DNA from: Modestobacter sp. Leaf380
GTDB lineage: Bacteria; Actinomycetota; Actinomycetes; Mycobacteriales; Geodermatophilaceae
Assembly (NCBI RefSeq): GCF_001424485.1
Contig: NZ_LMQC01000022.1
Location: forward strand, 124,001-188,000
Reading direction: 5' to 3'
Length of the DNA: 64,000 nt
How positions within the stretch are numbered: position 1 is the stretch's first letter; each line of letters starts with the position of its first letter. Both the position numbers and the translations under genes were made by a program. Below are positions 1,126-8,904 of this stretch, in pieces. The notes under the pieces are model-generated. The model saw nothing but the letters and a program-made list of their open reading frames with translations. It ran no database searches and was not told where the DNA came from.

Positions 1126-1980
1126 CTACTGGGCCTTGGCCAACGTCCCCAGGTAGAGCTCGATGACCTTGGGGTCGTTCATCAGCGACTTGCCGGTGTC
1201 GGTGTAGGCGTTGCGGCCCTGGTCGAGCACGTAGCCGCGGTCGCAGATCTGCAGGCACCGGCGGGCGTTCTGCTCGACCATGATGATCGAGACGCCGGTG
1301 GCGTTGATCCGCCGGCAGCGGATGAACACCTCGTCCTGGTAGGCGGGGGACAGACCGGCCGAGGGCTCGTCGAGCAACAGCACCGACGGGTCCATCATCA
1401 GCGCCCGGCCCATCGCCACCATCTGCCGCTCGCCGCCCGACAGCGACCCGGCCTTGCCCTTGCGCCGCTCACCGAGCAGCGGGAACAGGTCGATGACGTA
1501 GTCGAAGCGGTCCTTGAACGTCTTCGGGCGCAGGTACACGCCCATCTGCATGTTCTCCTCGATGGTCAGCGCGGGGAACACGTTGTTGTTCTGCGGCACG
1601 TACCCGACGCCCAGCTGCACCAGCTTGTGCGCCGGGGCCGAGGTGATGGTCTCCCCGCGCAGCGTCACCGCACCCGAGCGGACCGGGATGAGCCCGAAGA
1701 GGGTCTTCAGCAGCGTCGACTTCCCGGCCCCGTTGGGGCCGATGATGCCGACCAGCTCGCCGTCCTGCAGGTAGAAGTCGCAGCCCCGCAGGATGTTGAC
1801 CCCCGGCACGTAACCGGCGACCAGGTCGTCGGCCCGGACCAGGGCGCCCTCCGCGAGCTTGAGGTGCTCCTCGCGAGTGGCGGCCTTCTCGGCCGGGGAC
1901 AGCTCGGCGGCCGAGGACGCGGTGTCGGCGCGGGTGAGGTCCTCGCCGGTCTCGTCGACCTCGAACAGCGGCTCGCTCAT
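1126..1980 (-). CDS. livF: branched-chain amino-acid ABC transporter, ATP-binding protein LivF
   Basis: One of the two ATPases of a LivFGHM-type importer. It binds ATP at the cytoplasmic face of the LivH/LivM permeases. The 284 residues include Walker A (GPNGAGKSTLLKTLFG, about residue 82), the ABC signature LSGGERQMVAMGRAL, and Walker B with the catalytic Glu (VLLLDEPSAGLSP). The distal stretch MVEQNARRCLQICDRGYVL is typical of LivF. An acidic leader of about 40 residues precedes the ABC domain and is longer than in the usual ~235-residue family members. ATG overlaps the livG stop (ATGA). Substrate class is inferred from family only. Confidence 0.92.
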   Translation of the reverse strand: MSEPLFEVDETGEDLTRADTASSAAELSPAEKAATREEHLKLAEGALVRADDLVAGYVPGVNILRGCDFYLQDGELVGIIGPNGAGKSTLLKTLFGLIPVRSGAVTLRGETITSAPAHKLVQLGVGYVPQNNNVFPALTIEENMQMGVYLRPKTFKDRFDYVIDLFPLLGERRKGKAGSLSGGERQMVAMGRALMMDPSVLLLDEPSAGLSPAYQDEVFIRCRRINATGVSIIMVEQNARRCLQICDRGYVLDQGRNAYTDTGKSLMNDPKVIELYLGTLAKAQ

Positions 1981-3023
1981 CGCTTCTCCGTCCCGTCGCT
2001 GGTGATCGTCTCGGCCCGGCCGGACCCGCCGGGCACGCCCTCCTCGCGGGCGATGGCCGCCTCCGCCTCGGCGAGGACGCGGTCCTCCTCCTCGTTGGTC
2101 AGCGGCGCGTCGTGGTGGGCGCCGAGATAGGCGTCGACCACGTCCTTGTTCTGGCTGATGGACTCCGGCGGGCCCTCGGCGATGACCTTGCCGGCGGCCA
2201 TGACGACGACCCAGTCGCTGATGTCGCGGACGACGTCCATGTCGTGCTCGACGAAGACGACGGTCATGCCCTCCTCACGGAGGTCCTTGACGTGGCCCAG
2301 CAGGGACTGGGTCAGCGCCGGGTTCACCCCGGCCATCGGCTCGTCGAGCATGACGACCTTGGGGTCGCTCATCAGGGCCCGGGCCATCTCCAGCAGCTTG
2401 CGCTGGCCACCGGAGAGCACGCCGGCGAACTCGTCCTTCTTGGCGTCGAGCTTGAACCGCTGGAGCAGGTCCATGGCCTTCTCGGTGTTCGCCCTCTCCT
2501 GCGAGCGCCAGGTCCCGGGGACCAGCGCCTTGAGGAAGGACTCACCGGCCTGGCCCTGCGCACCCAGCAGCATGTTCTGCAGCACGGTGAGCCGGGACAG
2601 CGCCTTGGTCAGCTGGAAGGTGCGCACCACGCCGAGTCGGGCGACCTGGTGCGGGGACAGCCGGCCCAGGGACTTGCCGTCGAAGGTCCAGGTGCCGGTG
2701 TTGGGCTGGTCGAACCCGGTGAGCAGGTTGAACAGCGTGGTCTTGCCGGCACCGTTGGGCCCGATCAGCCCGGTGATGCCACCGCGCTGGATCTCCAGGT
2801 GGTCCACCGAGACGGCGGTGAGTCCACCGAAGGTGCGGGTGACGCCGTCGACGACCAGGGCCGGGTCGGGCTTGGCGACGCCGACCTCCCAGGGGAGGTC
2901 CCTGAGGGCCGCCTGGGCCAGCCGGGCCGGAGCGGCCCGGCCGGCCGGCGCCGTGCCGGTGGAGGTGGCGGTGGGGGTGCTGGACGCCGCGTGGGCGCCG
3001 GTGGGCTGCGGGTCAGCGGGCAT
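1977..3023 (-). CDS. livG: branched-chain amino-acid ABC transporter, ATP-binding protein LivG
   Basis: Second ATPase of the Liv importer. From the ATG at 3021-3023 the protein has 348 residues. A low-complexity Ala/Pro/Thr leader of ~55 residues comes first, then Walker A GPNGAGKTTLFNLLTG near residue 88, the signature LSGGQRKLLEMARAL, and Walker B VVMLDEPMAGVNP, the MAGV form being typical of LivG. An upstream start at 3047 is possible but would overlap livM more; the chosen start overlaps livM by 11 bp. The C-terminal tail beyond the ABC domain is rich in Glu and Ala. It is part of livH-livM-livG-livF. Confidence 0.9.
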   Translation of the reverse strand: MPADPQPTGAHAASSTPTATSTGTAPAGRAAPARLAQAALRDLPWEVGVAKPDPALVVDGVTRTFGGLTAVSVDHLEIQRGGITGLIGPNGAGKTTLFNLLTGFDQPNTGTWTFDGKSLGRLSPHQVARLGVVRTFQLTKALSRLTVLQNMLLGAQGQAGESFLKALVPGTWRSQERANTEKAMDLLQRFKLDAKKDEFAGVLSGGQRKLLEMARALMSDPKVVMLDEPMAGVNPALTQSLLGHVKDLREEGMTVVFVEHDMDVVRDISDWVVVMAAGKVIAEGPPESISQNKDVVDAYLGAHHDAPLTNEEEDRVLAEAEAAIAREEGVPGGSGRAETITSDGTEKR

Positions 3024-4029
3024 CGAGCAGAACCTCTCGTCGATCACCGAAGATGCCCTGCGGCCGGAAGATCATCAGGAGCATGATGCCGATCCCGATG
3101 ATGATGAACCGGGCGAAGGCGACGTCGGTGGCGTCGAACACGTCGTCGAGCTGGAAGAGGCCGAAGAACGAGACCCCGTTGCCGATCAGGGCCGACAGGC
3201 CGCTGTCGGAGAACGCGATGATGAACCACAGCAGCATGGCGCCGACCACGGGGCCGAGCACGCGGGCCGCACCACCGAGGATGAGCGCCCCGTAGGCCAG
3301 GAACGTGTTGGCGTTCTGGTACTGGTCGGGCTGCACGGAACCGGTGCCCAGCGCGTAGACCATGCCGCCGAGTGCACCGAAGACGCCGCCCAGGACCAGG
3401 GACTGCATCTTGTAGGAGTAGACGTTCTTGCCCAGCGCGCGGGCGGCGTCCTCGTCCTCGCGGATGGCCTTGAGCACGCGGCCCCACGGGCTGCGCATCA
3501 GGGCGAAGATGAGCAGCGAGCCGAGCACCACCAGCGTCCAGCCGACGGTGACCGTCCACAGCTCCACGCCGCTCCAGCGGGTGCCGAGGATGTCGTAGCG
3601 GCCGGCGGGCGACCACGGGGACAGGTCCAGGAAGCCGGTGTTGAACGCCGAGATGCCCTGGGTGCCACCGGTGACCGGGGTGGAGGACACCGACCGGAAG
3701 AGCAGCCTGAGCGCCTCGGCCGCGGCGATCGTCACGATCGCCAGGTAGTCCGCCCGCAGGCGCAGCGTGGGCAGGCCCAGGAGCAGGGCCAGCACGACGG
3801 CGGCGACCAGCCCGATGAGGACGCCGACGAAGAACGGCAGGCCCCACTGGGTGACCGAGATGGCGATGCCGAAGCCGCCGACCATCGCGAAGGCGATCTG
3901 GCCGAAGTTGAGCAGGCCGGTGTACCCGAAGTGCAGGTTCAGGCCCATGGCGAGCAGCGCGAAGAAGACCGCCTGGTAGGCGAACATCGACCGCACGCCG
4001 AGGGAGAGGGCGTCGAGGAACTCGTTCAT
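3013..4029 (-). CDS. livM: branched-chain amino-acid ABC transporter permease LivM
   Basis: An integral membrane permease of 338 residues, family-typical in length, with about nine hydrophobic segments. Diagnostic LivM sequence is present: MGLNLHFGYTGLLNFGQ near residue 30, the cytoplasmic coupling loop SPWGRVLKAIREDEDAARAL near residue 190, and the C-terminal FRPQGIFG. It starts 4 nt after the livH stop and its end overlaps livG, so all four liv genes are probably one transcript. With LivH it forms the translocation channel. Confidence 0.93.
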   Translation of the reverse strand: MNEFLDALSLGVRSMFAYQAVFFALLAMGLNLHFGYTGLLNFGQIAFAMVGGFGIAISVTQWGLPFFVGVLIGLVAAVVLALLLGLPTLRLRADYLAIVTIAAAEALRLLFRSVSSTPVTGGTQGISAFNTGFLDLSPWSPAGRYDILGTRWSGVELWTVTVGWTLVVLGSLLIFALMRSPWGRVLKAIREDEDAARALGKNVYSYKMQSLVLGGVFGALGGMVYALGTGSVQPDQYQNANTFLAYGALILGGAARVLGPVVGAMLLWFIIAFSDSGLSALIGNGVSFFGLFQLDDVFDATDVAFARFIIIGIGIMLLMIFRPQGIFGDRREVLLDAR

Positions 4030-4033
4030 GAGA

Positions 4034-5407
4034 TCAACCGATCCTGGCCCGGCTGCCCAGGATGCCCTGGGGCCGCACGATGAGGATGACGATGAGCAGG
4101 AGCAGTCCGCCGACGTACTTCATGTCGTTGGGGATGACCAGCGTCGACATCTGGATGAACACACCGACGATCACGCTGCCGAGCAGGGCGCCGTAGGCGG
4201 TGCCCAGACCGCCCAGGGTGACCCCGGCGAACATCAGCAGGAGCAGGCGGAAGCCCATGTCCCACTGCACCTGGTCCGACAGGCCCAGGAGCACGCCGCC
4301 CAGGGCTGCGAGGGCGCCACCGGCCATCCACACGACCAGGATGACCCGGTTGACGTCGATGCCGGAGGAGGCCGCCAGGTCGCGGTTGTCGGCGACGGCA
4401 CGCATGGCCTTGCCGATCCGCGAGCGCTGCAGCATGAGCGCGACACCGACGAGGACGACCAGCGCGATCACGATGCTGTAGAGGTCGCGGTCGGTGATCG
4501 CGAACGCACCGAAGTCCCGGGCGCGCTGGGACTGGTAGTCGGTGTAGGCGTTGGAACGCCCGCCGTAGACCGTCTGGATCAGGTAGCGCAGGGCCAGCGA
4601 GAGCCCGATGGAGACCACCAGCGCTGCGACCAGGCCGGTGCCGCGCTTGCGCAGCGGCCGCCAGAGCGCGAGCTCGTTCAGCGCGCCGACCGCGGCACCG
4701 ACGAGGACCGCGACCACCGCCGCGGCGACGAGCGGGACCCCGGTGGCGTTGATGAAGAAGGCGACGACGGCGCCGATGGTGACAAGCTCGCCGTGCGCGA
4801 AGTTGGTCAGCCCGGTGGTGCCGAAGATCAGCGACAGACCGACCGCGGCCAGCGCGATCAGCAGGCCGAAGCGGAGGCCGTCGACGAAGAGCTGGACGGC
4901 GAGGATGCGGCCGCTGCCGCGCTCCTCCCCGTCGGTGAGGGCGAAGGTGACGGGGAGGCGGCGGTTCTCCTCGACCGTGACGTCACGGGAGGCGCCGTCC
5001 CCGGCCGTGACGCCCTCGGGGAGGGCGTCCTCGTCGATGGTGACGGTGTAGTCGCCGGCGCCGTCGGGGAGGTCGATGGCGAAGCGGCCGGCGTCGTCGG
5101 TCTCGACGGAGTCCACCTCGTCGCCGCCGGCCGTGGTGACCGTGACCTCGACACCGGCGATGGGGCCGGTCGATCCGGTGGTCAGCGTGCCGCGGACCTG
5201 CTCGCCGGCGGCCTGGGCCGTGCCGCTGGGCAGCAGCGCCGCGAAGACCATCGCGAACGAGGCCAGCAGCAGCGCCAGCACCAGGGGACGTCGGGCGCTC
5301 GACCACCTGCCGGAGGACGTCCGGTGCGGGCGTGGTCCGGTCCGGGACGCGCCCGGCGGGCCCGTCCGGTCACCGTGCACGAGGGCACGGTGGGGTGCGT
5401 GCGTCAC
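4034..5407 (-). CDS. livH: branched-chain amino-acid ABC transporter permease LivH with an exported Ig-like N-terminal domain
   Basis: A 457-residue protein, ~165 residues longer than a typical LivH of ~290. Residues ~165-457 are the permease (GLTNFAHGELVTIGA, coupling loop SRIGKAMRAVADNRDLAASS, end IVRPQGILGS). Residues ~38-67 look like a signal sequence ending in TAQAAG. Residues ~68-160 (RGTLTTGSTGPIAGVEVTV, TDDAGRFAIDLPDGAGDYTV) resemble carboxypeptidase-regulatory or CNA-B/transthyretin-like beta sandwiches, which would lie outside the membrane. The GTG start is supported by GGAGG five bases upstream. It is first in livHMGF; no LivK-type binding protein gene is visible here. Confidence 0.9.
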   Translation of the reverse strand: MTHAPHRALVHGDRTGPPGASRTGPRPHRTSSGRWSSARRPLVLALLLASFAMVFAALLPSGTAQAAGEQVRGTLTTGSTGPIAGVEVTVTTAGGDEVDSVETDDAGRFAIDLPDGAGDYTVTIDEDALPEGVTAGDGASRDVTVEENRRLPVTFALTDGEERGSGRILAVQLFVDGLRFGLLIALAAVGLSLIFGTTGLTNFAHGELVTIGAVVAFFINATGVPLVAAAVVAVLVGAAVGALNELALWRPLRKRGTGLVAALVVSIGLSLALRYLIQTVYGGRSNAYTDYQSQRARDFGAFAITDRDLYSIVIALVVLVGVALMLQRSRIGKAMRAVADNRDLAASSGIDVNRVILVVWMAGGALAALGGVLLGLSDQVQWDMGFRLLLLMFAGVTLGGLGTAYGALLGSVIVGVFIQMSTLVIPNDMKYVGGLLLLIVILIVRPQGILGSRARIG

Positions 5408-5654
5408 TCGACCTCCTGGGCCGTCTGGTGGGGCAGCCCGACCCCTGGGTTCGCCAGGTGGACAGCAGGCCGCCGTTGGTTGAACGGCGCGGACAGTAAC
5501 CCACGGTTGTTGCGGTTCTGGGTCCTCCGGGACGGTCCGTGACCCAACCGCGACCCGGGGAGCCCGCTGAGAGCCCGGTCGCAGTCGGGGCGAAACGGAC
5601 GAGCTCAGAGGTGACCTGGGTCTCCCCGTGCACGTCAGGGGCGTGTGCGGCGCC

Positions 5655-6056
5655 TCATGGGGTCTTCACGAGGCAGGTCAGTCGGGCGCTCGCCGTCGGG
5701 CGGCCCTGGTCGTCGCTGACCTCGACCAGGAAGGTGGCCAGCGTGCGGCCGCGACGAACCGGTGTGCAGACGGCGGTGACGACGCCCTCGGTGGCCGCGC
5801 GCAGGTAGGAGGCGTTCAGCTCGATCCCGACGACCTGTCGTCCCGGTCCCGCGTGCAGGGCCGCGGCCCACGAGCCGACCGACTCGACCAGGGCGCAGGT
5901 CGCCCCGCCGTGCAGCAGGCCGAAGGGCTGCTCGTTGCCGGCCACCGGCATGGTGGCCACCATCCGGTCGGGGTCGAAGTCGGTGATGACGATGCCCAGC
6001 TTGGCGTCCAGACCGGTCAGCTCGGCGGGGGCCCAGTCCGGGCGCGGTGTGCTCAC
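5655..6056 (-). CDS. PaaI-family hotdog thioesterase
   Basis: A 133-residue single hotdog domain. The GLLHGGATCALVESVGSWAA segment carries the HGG motif and the acidic residue on the following helix used by PaaI/YbgC-type acyl-CoA thioesterases. The FxxxPVAGNEQPFGLLHGG lead-in is also typical. It probably hydrolyses a CoA thioester, but the acyl group cannot be told. The GTG start at 6054-6056 is chosen because the fold begins soon after; an extension to 6197 would run across the polA promoter. It is divergent from polA. Confidence 0.85.
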   Translation of the reverse strand: MSTPRPDWAPAELTGLDAKLGIVITDFDPDRMVATMPVAGNEQPFGLLHGGATCALVESVGSWAAALHAGPGRQVVGIELNASYLRAATEGVVTAVCTPVRRGRTLATFLVEVSDDQGRPTASARLTCLVKTP

Positions 6057-6136
6057 GTCGGCACGGTAGCCACCGCGCCACGCAGGCCCGGTGTCCGCGC
6101 CGTCGCCGGGGACTGGGGACCGTCGTACCCCCGCCC

Positions 6137-6142
6137 TAGGAT
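6137..6142 (+). promoter_or_regulatory. -10 box of polA, leaderless type
   Basis: TAGGAT lies 8 nt before the polA ATG at 6151, so the transcript would begin at or next to the start codon. No ribosome binding site precedes the ATG. No convincing -35 box is visible. Confidence 0.5.
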
Positions 6143-6150
6143 CGGACCCG

Positions 6151-8904
6151 ATGTCCGCTCCGGTCTCCGCCCTCGCGTCCCAGCCCACCGACAGCACCCC
6201 CGACGGCTCGCAGCCGCGGCCCCGGTTGCTGCTGCTCGACGGCCACTCGCTGGCCTACCGGGCCTTCTTCGCGCTGCCGGTGGAGAACTTCTCGACCACC
6301 ACCGGGCAGCCCACGAACGCCGTGTACGGGTTCACCTCGATGCTGATCAACGTCCTGCGCGACGAGGCGCCCAGTCACCTGGCGGTCGCCTTCGACGTCG
6401 GCCGCAAGACGTTCCGCAGCGAGATCTTCGCCGGGTACAAGGCCAACCGGAGCGAGAGCCCGACCGACTTCCGGGGCCAGGTCAGCCTGATCCAGGAGGT
6501 GCTGGCGGCCCTGCACGTGCCGGTGCTGACCGCCGAGGGCTTCGAGGCCGACGACGTCATCGCCACCTTGACCGTGCAGGCCGTCGAGTCCGGCATGGAC
6601 GTGCTCATCTGCACCGGCGACCGGGACGCCCTGCAGCTGGTCAACGAGCACGTGACGGTGCTCTACCCCCGCAAGGGCGTCTCCGACCTCACCCGCTTCA
6701 CCCCGGAGGCGGTCGAGGAGAAGTACGGCCTCACCCCCACGCAGTACCCGGACTTCGCCGCACTGCGCGGCGACCCCTCGGACAACCTGCCCGGCATCCC
6801 CAGCGTCGGGGAGAAGACCGCGGCCAAGTGGGTGCGGGAGTACGGCTCGCTGGACGCGCTCGTCGACCAGGTGGACACCGTCAAGGGCAAAGTCGGGGAG
6901 AAGCTGCGCGAGCACCTGTCCTCGGTGATGCAGAACCGCCGGCTCACCGAGCTGGACCGCGCGGTCGCACTCGAGCTGCACCCCACCGACCTGGCCGTGC
7001 AGCCCTGGGACCGGGCCGAGGTGCACACGCTCTTCGACAACCTGCAGTTCCGGGTGCTCCGCGACCGGCTCTTCGCCACCCTCACCAGCGCCGAGCCCGA
7101 GGTGGACGGCGGCATCGACGTCACCGTCGACGACCTGGTGCCCGGTGGTCTGGGGGAGTGGCTGGACGCGCACACCCGTACCGGGCACACCGGCATCGTC
7201 TTCCGCGGTACCTGGGGGCGGGGCACCGGCGAGCTCACCGGCATCGCGCTGGCTGCCGCCGACGACCACACCGTCTTCGTCGACCTGGGCCCCGACCTCG
7301 ACGTCGCCGACGAGCAGTCGCTGGCCGCCTGGCTGTCCGACGCCTCGGCCACCAAGGTCGTGCACGAGGTCAAGGGCCCGCTGCTGGCCGTCTGGGCCCG
7401 GGGCTGGGACCTGGCCGGCGAGGTCAGCGACACCGCCCTGGCGGCCTACCTGGCGCTGCCGGGGCAGCGGTCCTTCGACCTGGGCGACCTCGCGGTGCGC
7501 TACCTGCGCCGCGAGCTGACCGAGGCCGCGCCGGCCGAGCAGCAGCTGAGCCTGGAGGGCATGGGTCCCGGCGAGGACGACGTGGCCCGCGAGGCCGCCG
7601 TCGCCGACGCCCGCAAGGCCGTCGCGGTCAACGACCTCTCCGACGCCCTCGAGCAGGTGCTCGGCCAGCGTGGCGGGGACCGACTGCTGGGCGGGCTGGA
7701 GCTCCCGCTGACCCGGGTGCTGGCGCGGATGGAGCAGCGCGGCATCGCCGCAGACCTGGACCTGCTCCACGACCTGCAGTCGGAGTTCGCCGCCGCCGTC
7801 GCCGAGGCCGCGGCCGACGCCTACGAGGCCATCGGCGGCCAGGAGATCAACCTGGGTTCCCCGAAGCAGCTGCAGGCGGTGCTGTTCGACCAGCTCGGTC
7901 TGCCCAAGACCAAGAAGAACAAGACCGGCTACACCACCGACGCCGATGCACTGCAGTCACTGCAGGCAGCCGCGCCGCACCCTTTCCTGGAGGCGCTGCT
8001 GCGACACCGCGACGTCACCCGGCTGCGGACGGTCATCGACGGCCTGATCCCGATGGTCGACGACGCCGGGCGCATCCACACGACGTTCCAGCAGACGATC
8101 GCGGCGACCGGGCGGCTGTCCTCCACCGACCCGAACCTCCAGAACATCCCGATCCGCAGCGCCGAGGGCCGCCGGATCCGGCAGGCGTTCGTCGTCGGCG
8201 CCGGCCACGAGTCCCTGATGACCGCGGACTACAGCCAGATCGAGATGCGGATCATGGCCCACCTCTCCGAGGACGCCGGGCTCATCGAGGCGTTCACGTC
8301 GGGGGAGGACCTGCACACCTTCGTCGCCGCGCGGGCCTTCGACATCCCGATCGAGCAGGTCGACCCCGAGATGCGCCGCCGGATCAAGGCGATGAGCTAC
8401 GGCCTGGCCTACGGGTTGAGCGCCTACGGGCTCTCTGGGCAGCTGAAGATCACGCCCGAGGAGGCCCGGGTGCAGATGAACGCCTACTTCGAGCGCTTCG
8501 GCGGCATCCGGGACTACCTGGACGGGGTCGTCGAGGACGCCCGGCAGACCGGGTACACCGAGACCACCATGGGTCGCCGCCGCTACCTGCCCGACCTGAC
8601 CAGCGACAACAAGCAGCGCCGGGACATGGCCGAGCGGATGGCGCTCAACGCCCCGATCCAGGGGTCGGCGGCCGACGTCATCAAGGTGGCGATGCTGCGG
8701 GTCGAGCACGCCATCGCCGAGCGCGGGCTGTCCTCCCGGATGGTGCTGCAGGTGCACGACGAGCTCGTCCTGGAGGTCGCACCCGGTGAGCGGGAGCAGC
8801 TCGAGGAGCTGGTCCGGGCCGAGATGGCCGGAGCTGCGGAGCTGTCGGTGGCCCTCGACGTGTCGGTCGGCGTCGGCCAGAGCTGGGACGCTGCCGCCCA
8901 CTGA
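6151..8904 (+). CDS. polA: DNA polymerase I
   Basis: Replicative repair polymerase, 917 residues. The N-terminal 5'-nuclease domain (about 20-310) has DGHSLAYRAFFALP, GFEADDVIATL and GDPSDNLPGIPSVGEKTA. The middle domain (330-500) lacks the DxE exonuclease signature of E. coli PolA (RGTWG stands where DTETD is expected), so proofreading is probably lost, as is common in actinobacteria. The polymerase domain has motif A DYSQIEMRIMAHLS (~693), motif B RRRIKAMSYGLAYGLSAYG and motif C QVHDELVLEV (~868). The start follows the leaderless -10 box; an upstream in-frame start at 6091 would add 20 unlike residues. Confidence 0.97.
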   Translation: MSAPVSALASQPTDSTPDGSQPRPRLLLLDGHSLAYRAFFALPVENFSTTTGQPTNAVYGFTSMLINVLRDEAPSHLAVAFDVGRKTFRSEIFAGYKANRSESPTDFRGQVSLIQEVLAALHVPVLTAEGFEADDVIATLTVQAVESGMDVLICTGDRDALQLVNEHVTVLYPRKGVSDLTRFTPEAVEEKYGLTPTQYPDFAALRGDPSDNLPGIPSVGEKTAAKWVREYGSLDALVDQVDTVKGKVGEKLREHLSSVMQNRRLTELDRAVALELHPTDLAVQPWDRAEVHTLFDNLQFRVLRDRLFATLTSAEPEVDGGIDVTVDDLVPGGLGEWLDAHTRTGHTGIVFRGTWGRGTGELTGIALAAADDHTVFVDLGPDLDVADEQSLAAWLSDASATKVVHEVKGPLLAVWARGWDLAGEVSDTALAAYLALPGQRSFDLGDLAVRYLRRELTEAAPAEQQLSLEGMGPGEDDVAREAAVADARKAVAVNDLSDALEQVLGQRGGDRLLGGLELPLTRVLARMEQRGIAADLDLLHDLQSEFAAAVAEAAADAYEAIGGQEINLGSPKQLQAVLFDQLGLPKTKKNKTGYTTDADALQSLQAAAPHPFLEALLRHRDVTRLRTVIDGLIPMVDDAGRIHTTFQQTIAATGRLSSTDPNLQNIPIRSAEGRRIRQAFVVGAGHESLMTADYSQIEMRIMAHLSEDAGLIEAFTSGEDLHTFVAARAFDIPIEQVDPEMRRRIKAMSYGLAYGLSAYGLSGQLKITPEEARVQMNAYFERFGGIRDYLDGVVEDARQTGYTETTMGRRRYLPDLTSDNKQRRDMAERMALNAPIQGSAADVIKVAMLRVEHAIAERGLSSRMVLQVHDELVLEVAPGEREQLEELVRAEMAGAAELSVALDVSVGVGQSWDAAAH

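Follow-up and report, generated by a model that had tools for sequence, protein, structure and literature searches.

A probable amino-acid-type ABC importer of Modestobacter with an outer beta-sandwich domain on LivH and a circularly permuted LivK

In the ABC importer OpuA an extracytoplasmic domain is fused to the membrane part, and the urea permease UrtB carries an N-terminal exported extension, too. Among the binding proteins of such importers, TpMglB-2 (Tp0684) from Treponema pallidum was described as a permuted protein of 'Type Ic / Cluster Bc', which binds D-glucose and changes its shape upon binding, so that a type I binding protein with permuted halves is able to function (PMC4990184). 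Its authors saw in tethering a possible reason for the topology, and they could align the moved part at only 13% identity (PMC4990184). Furthermore, halves of binding proteins were engineered (PMC9815098). Beyond TpMglB-2, no other natural permuted binding protein of an ABC importer was noticed among the literature matches listed, a search in which subscription papers were mostly outside the scope, and the match listed for a permease together with a carboxypeptidase regulatory-like domain concerns MRSA genomes.

The window analysed here, a stretch of 64,000 nucleotides of Modestobacter sp. Leaf380, contains the minus-strand block livH-livM-livG-livF, in which livH is the first gene (Table 1). 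The original prediction, made from the window, had seen no LivK-type binding protein; this is true within the window, but a livK gene is located outside, convergent to livF (gene order livK >< livF-G-M-H), and ends at C22:123253, 748 bases beyond the left edge of the window (whose first base is 124001). Genes for two permeases, two ATPases and a binding protein of LivK type thus lie together, as the five-component set of the HAAT importers. It is very probable that these genes encode a five-part amino-acid-type ABC importer, in which LivH possesses an outer beta-sandwich and the partner LivK is circularly permuted. As a counterpoint, some permuted LivK proteins stand alone, i.e., at four Micromonosporaceae-type loci and as two second copies in the genus of the window, with no liv genes in the 12-17 kb read. 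On the tree of the LivF, LivG, LivM and LivH proteins the row nearest to the block of the window is Blastococcus endophyticus. The importer is flanked by pdtaR-like and polA-like genes, named from reading, with a 4HBT thioesterase gene in between (window 5655-8904); we take the response-regulator gene before livK to be pdtaR. Relatives of pdtaR were found in 10 and relatives of polA in 9 of 40 mapped neighbourhoods of limited length, distant actinobacteria included. The LivG and LivF frames contain about 60 and 45 residues, respectively, ahead of the ATPase domain, and LivG may start at an ATG near 3023.

Table 1. Features of the liv locus (window positions unless another reference is named).
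Feature	Position	Strand	Basis
Shine-Dalgarno AGGAGG, preceding GTG 5407	5412..5417	(-)	sequence reading
livH, 457-aa fused permease	4034..5407	(-)	ORF, Pfam and relatives
signal-like hydrophobic helix, LivH residues 37-67	5207..5299	(-)	sequence and AF2 model (helix ~39-57)
exported beta-sandwich (CarboxypepD_reg), LivH residues 68-160	4928..5206	(-)	PF13620; nine strands in AF2 model
BPD_transp_2 permease, LivH residues 175-441	4085..4885	(-)	PF02653, 156.9 bits
livM, second permease, 338 aa	3013..4029	(-)	PF02653, 140.9 bits; best NCBIfam LivM, below cut-off
livG ATPase, start codon uncertain	1977..3047	(-)	PF00005 and PF12399; best NCBIfam LivG, below cut-off
livF ATPase	1126..1980	(-)	PF00005; best NCBIfam LivF, below cut-off
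permuted livK, outside the window	G000:C22:121907-123253 = window -2093 to -747 = L068:13907-15253	(+)	Peripla_BP_6 search
response-regulator gene (ANTAR), before livK	L068:13045-13647	(+)	read by eye as pdtaR

The livH gene comprises 457 uninterrupted codons, with four bases between the AGGAGG and the GTG start. In ten relatives compared, the Shine-Dalgarno position is occupied by AGGAGG (3/10), GGGAGG (5/10) or the weaker GGGAG (2/10). It had been predicted that a LivH permease is fused here to an exported beta-sandwich preceded by a signal-like helix ending in TAQAAG, and both statements are confirmed: a single ORF of 457 residues contains both Pfam domains with scores over the cut-off, and GTAQAAG ends the hydrophobic helix; TDDAGRFAIDLPDG is also present in LivH. 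Compared with relatives from the family, the changes at codon positions 1/2/3 amount to 0.24/0.27/0.39 in the beta-domain and 0.15/0.08/0.33 in the permease part, and because they reach 0.42/0.40/0.50 in residues 2-36, the first ~36 residues appear to be weakly constrained. A translation start near residue 160 is ruled out by the family-wide matches of the domain without stops together with the codon-position constraint, so that the fusion stands for residues ~37-160. The match of the permease part to PF02653 (cut-off 26.8) covers profile positions 3-268 of 269. Its top NCBIfam match is the UrtB equivalog TIGR03409 with 138.3 bits, under the cut-off of 250.3, and the E. coli-type LivH equivalog NF008011 reaches 107.3 bits, under the cut-off of 379. 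A phmmer search of whole LivH against solved structures revealed no relative at E <= 0.01, and the N-terminal part gave four weak matches, the best with an E of 0.051. No viral relative was confirmed among 18 stretches matching a pattern, and of 206 plasmid records that match LivH, two do so with a coverage of at least 80%.

The domain had been proposed to be of SdrD/CNA-B or carboxypeptidase-regulatory character. Of these, the carboxypeptidase-regulatory assignment is supported by CarboxypepD_reg (PF13620); against a cut-off of 32.3, it matches LivH residues 70-158 with 38.7 bits in the whole protein and with 42.3 bits when only the N-terminal 166 residues are scanned. Among seven domain-bearing relatives scanned, L153 also lies over the cut-off (39.9), the other six at 19.4-28.6. 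SdrD_B, with 18.1 bits for the whole protein and 20.7 bits for the N-terminal part, stays below its cut-off of 29.7 and was dropped as the best name of the domain. SpaA, which is of CNA-B type, was found for the N-terminal part (24.8 bits, cut-off 23.1) and is not listed for the whole protein, and a NikL-type model of nickel/cobalt ECF systems gave a partial match to residues 61-126 (35.1 bits, cut-off 100). The AF2 model of LivH, for which an alignment of 56 natural sequences was used and in which residue 1 corresponds to protein residue 30, has a mean pLDDT of 89.2 and a pTM of 0.79 and consists of the signal helix, the beta-sandwich and the permease helices. The structure prediction that had been suggested for residues 68-160 thus yields a beta-sandwich, with block pLDDT values of 87-96. 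Its Foldseek neighbours are CnaB2 (8bdw, TMt 0.65-0.67), SdrD and transthyretin-like proteins with modest E values of 0.003 and up, and on the level of the fold the likeness to SdrD and CNA-B proteins is therefore retained. By its signal helix and its predicted structure, the domain should face outward.

The fusion had been regarded as unusual; instead, nearly all LivH proteins of one large clade in Actinomycetota have it. The domain is present in 73 of 74 distinct LivH ORFs of this clade (loci L009-L067 and L136-L175, E <= 1e-40, the later-fetched unfused outgroup left out), as judged by an HMM built from some of the same rows later scanned with it, and L168 is the exception. In the family, 93 of 112 genomes contain the fused LivH (E <= 1e-40, 96 matches in total). 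All 96 matches start at query residue 43 or before and show no internal stop, so that the domain is included in each; two of them are incomplete at the opposite end. In an even draw across the phylum a LivH match was obtained in 65 of 396 genomes at 69 places (E <= 1e-50); at 53 of these the alignment begins no later than query residue 83, and three have one in-frame TGA. The genome searches scored only the best 4 to 15 first-look candidates per genome, and absences are no proof; this applies to the family genomes in which LivH (19 of 112), LivK (17) or both (16) were not found. On the tree of LivF, LivG, LivM and the LivH permease part (71 rows), a branch with full support sets nine loci with an unfused LivH apart from the remaining 62, and in view of this split and of the clade-wide domain, the fusion looks like a single old event in a large actinobacterial clade. 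The LivH of L168 (L168:7968-8975) has kept the signal helix with a short tail and lost the beta-domain, which means that an importer of such type can do without it. In the LivK of L168, a single case read by eye, a cleavable signal replaces the lipobox. A second fused LivH, 51-52% identical, was found in three genomes of one family group, and its LivK is unpermuted.

LivK is a two-lobed binding protein with circularly permuted halves: an ASAC|GG lipobox and a linker rich in Gly and Ser are followed by the C-terminal half and then by the N-terminal half. The profile search of the contig gave a Peripla_BP_6 match at C22:122582-123244 (+), in which profile positions 1-217 of 343 correspond to residues 266-486 of the 488-residue LivK reading, i.e., to the second half only; further Pfam matches are ANF_receptor and Peripla_BP_5. 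The same was found in four of four further permuted LivK proteins (positions 2-4 to 216-226, second half), and in four of four unpermuted orthologues the profile extends to 307-324 of 343. For annotation this means that the Pfam profile covers only half of permuted LivK proteins. Of the 112 family genomes, 92 preserve the swapped order as one match across both halves (query residue 16 or before to 447-448); three of the others have partial matches, likely at contig ends, and 17 have none. Among the 80 best named-genome loci listed, ordered by likeness to the permuted query, 79 show the permuted order in a single frame and the remaining one ends at a contig end. The AF2 model of the permuted LivK has a pLDDT of 85.9 and a pTM of 0.86, with residues 1-36 below 50. 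In structural alignments with ordinary binding proteins, model residues 202-425 fall on residues 1-243 (3ip5: Z 18.1, 220 residues, 2.6 Å), and the superposition with 4n0q locates the breakpoint at about residue 220 of 345. For residues 1-198 the structure aligner returned hardly any match (the rows span 199-425), because the other half fills the list, and phmmer with the first half alone found no solved structure. The assignment of the first half is therefore based on its identity to unpermuted orthologues and on a profile of six of these, which matches solved LivJ-type proteins over positions 2-303.

A lipobox is present in 103 of 107 permuted and in 33 of 33 unpermuted LivK rows parsed, counts in which some genomes occur twice; L168 is absent from the rows listed without a lipobox and was probably unparsed. 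The motifs GAASS, SPANTS and xDGN at ligand-site positions, which we take to be the ligand-site motifs of LivJ, are kept, and LivK should therefore bind an alpha-amino acid or a close relative. Two cysteines of the mature protein, C121 and C127 (L068 numbering), are invariant in 26 of 26 permuted and 6 of 6 unpermuted proteins aligned and likely form a disulfide. A second permuted LivK, 58-61% identical, occurs in four genomes of the genus of the window. At L266:6813-8000 and L267:7251-8450 the second permuted LivK has no livFGMH within 15 kb and is possibly an orphan receptor, and the Micromonosporaceae-type permuted LivK proteins of L142, L234, L249 and L251 are encoded without liv genes in the 12-17 kb read.

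Across the 40 mapped neighbourhoods, which were picked by similarity so that counts are not frequencies, LivK is unpermuted in 30, permuted in seven and missing in three. The 30 unpermuted orthologues have the reverse order of the halves in one ORF, with a gap between the two hits of at most 21 bases in 25 and of 48-114 bases in five, and their identity to the LivK of the window's genome is 40-64% in the N half and 34-56% in the C half. In the phylum-wide draw a permuted single match was found in 8 of 396 genomes, the window's genome included. The permuted proteins have two breakpoints, about 20 residues apart. In LivK of type alpha the chain begins anew directly ahead of YGxDGN (in L247/L255, YLVDGN) and finishes on GIGPxR or similar; this type is found in Geodermatophilaceae, Micromonosporaceae and the actinomycete MAGs L214, L247 and L255. 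Type beta restarts at LxGMKGT or similar, ends after xxDGNxGNALG and is found in Acidimicrobiia, in several MAGs labelled only Actinomycetes/Actinomycetota and in Salsipaludibacter (Nitriliruptoria). The LivK tree (66 rows, halves set in one order, eight unparsed loci left out) contains four changes between permuted and unpermuted, three of which are forced by starred branches for the unpermuted label. On the independent LivFGMH tree (71 rows; L214 with too few genes and six rows without LivK state dropped) there are five changes, every one of them required by starred branches from a quick search, and trees of the single halves (six rows dropped) give 4-5 changes on weak branches, with 1-2 forced by starred branches. 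The AU test rejects trees in which all permuted rows group together (p 0.0002), and likewise those that group all alpha rows (p 0.0006); an earlier smaller tree had given p values of 0.026 (all permuted rows), 0.28 (alpha) and 0.23 (beta). From the two breakpoints and the trees rejecting a single clade we firmly infer at least two origins of the permutation, and three to five are likely. The unpermuted LivK of L143 is placed inside the alpha clade with weak support and beside alpha on the LivFGMH tree. L223, with two hits of the C half, was considered as an intermediate of permutation and dropped, as its sequence holds a stretch that looks frameshifted.

A single ancestral permutation, carried between lineages by gene transfer and later trimmed in different ways, would agree with the sister position of the main alpha and beta clades on the LivK tree (96/87) and with AU tests that do not reject beta as one clade (p 0.08), nor alpha minus L247/L255 (p 0.34, a group named after the tree was seen). 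However, L247/L255 are found inside an otherwise unpermuted LivK clade (99/95), although on a long stem of 0.77, which is a caveat, they adjoin the unpermuted G325 on the LivFGMH tree (96), and it is their joining with the other alpha rows that the AU test rejects; we thus regard a single permutation as improbable. That the permuted LivK is an artefact of misassembly, or of two unrelated half genes read as one, is hardly conceivable: the restriction of the Pfam match to the second half and the phmmer search without a solved structure for the first half would fit, but the one-frame order recurs in 92 of 112 family genomes and 79 of 80 best named-genome loci, 30 unpermuted orthologues resemble the first half in their own second half at 34-56% identity, and the AF2 model is confident. 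In the mechanism that we propose for the recurrently permuted protein, LivK, LivH, LivM, LivG and LivF would act together as one amino-acid-type ABC importer. LivH would be made with the signal helix and the exported beta-sandwich, which would fold on the outer face beside the first permease helix. LivK would be lipid-anchored, and the permutation would let the anchor join roughly two thirds along the normal chain, in the part of lobe 2 close to the hinge and not at the start of lobe 1, the lobes presumably being assigned as in LivJ. LivK would bind its alpha-amino acid or close relative and pass it to LivH/LivM, and it might work either despite the shifted tether or owing to it. The outer domain could, as a guess, be a fixed cap or collar on the mouth of LivH/LivM that shapes the landing surface for the tethered LivK.

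For the role of the domain, partial correlations of divergence were calculated over 31 loci (15 tests, uncorrected), which amount to 0.29 with the permease (p 0.002), 0.18 with LivM (p 0.014) and 0.09 with LivK (p 0.15). These values would speak for a permease cap rather than a LivK dock, a preference held with low confidence. The value for LivK is not significant, so that the coevolution test lends no support to docking of LivK, and for a contact of the domain with LivM it lends at most weak support. The original prediction had suggested that the domain docks a binding protein, and a docking or capture site for LivK is possible, if rather unlikely: the domain is placed on the outer face by topology and model, and LivK and LivH share a neighbourhood and are jointly absent, but the correlation with LivK is lower than those with LivM and the permease, L168 possesses a LivK without having the domain, and the loss of the whole block explains the joint absence as well. 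Less likely still is a role outside transport, as a spacer or sensor that faces the wall or envelope, for which surface proteins such as CnaB2, SdrD and pilins among the fold neighbours could be put forward; transthyretin-like enzymes are also among these neighbours, the fold says little on function, and the Pfam hits listed include no wall-binding or sensor family. It is a tentative thought, which we consider doubtful, that the permutation arose three to five times in Actinomycetota near the same hinge-proximal spot because a tether moved away from lobe 1 aids LivK in working with a domain-bearing LivH/LivM. If true, the locus would amount to a naturally replicated experiment on the reasons for permutation in binding proteins.

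In comparison to known systems, the importer resembles LivJ/LivK-LivHMGF (HAAT) in the gene set, the Pfam families, the fold of LivK and the ligand-site motifs. Unlike HAAT importers, it has the outer domain of LivH and the permuted LivK, and the NCBIfam cut-offs for LivH, LivM, LivG and LivF are not reached; UrtB is the top match of the LivH permease part, yet below its cut-off. With GlnPQ and OpuA, LivH shares extracytoplasmic domains fused to the importer membrane part; however, these are substrate-binding domains there, whereas LivH has a beta-sandwich and a separate LivK. The NikL-type subunit of nickel/cobalt ECF systems shares only the type of the beta-domain with LivH. The fused LivH proteins define a subfamily of permeases that carry an accessory domain on the outside. 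Like the lipid-anchored TpMglB-2 (PMC4990184), LivK is a natural, two-lobed type I protein with circular permutation and would have a lipid anchor, and it thus has the permuted type I topology of Type Ic without being an MglB-type sugar binder with a breakpoint in the N-lobe. TpMglB-2 is an MglB-type glucose binder in which the first three strands of the N-lobe were moved to the C-terminus, and it has a fourth lobe crossover (PMC4990184), which in LivK would be represented by the joining linker. In contrast, LivK is of the amino-acid type (Peripla_BP_6), is cut about two thirds along, occurs with two types of breakpoint and, on the trees built, has more than one origin, and it has unpermuted orthologues in the same gene block that are clearly recognised by sequence identity (34-56% and 40-64%). 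As permuted and unpermuted LivK proteins both usually possess a lipobox, the permutation is not accounted for by tethering alone, and the matched natural pairs within the same gene block make its purpose directly testable. Judged by these comparisons of sequences, what is new with respect to TpMglB-2 is a separate, amino-acid-type and recurrent permutation with natural unpermuted controls.
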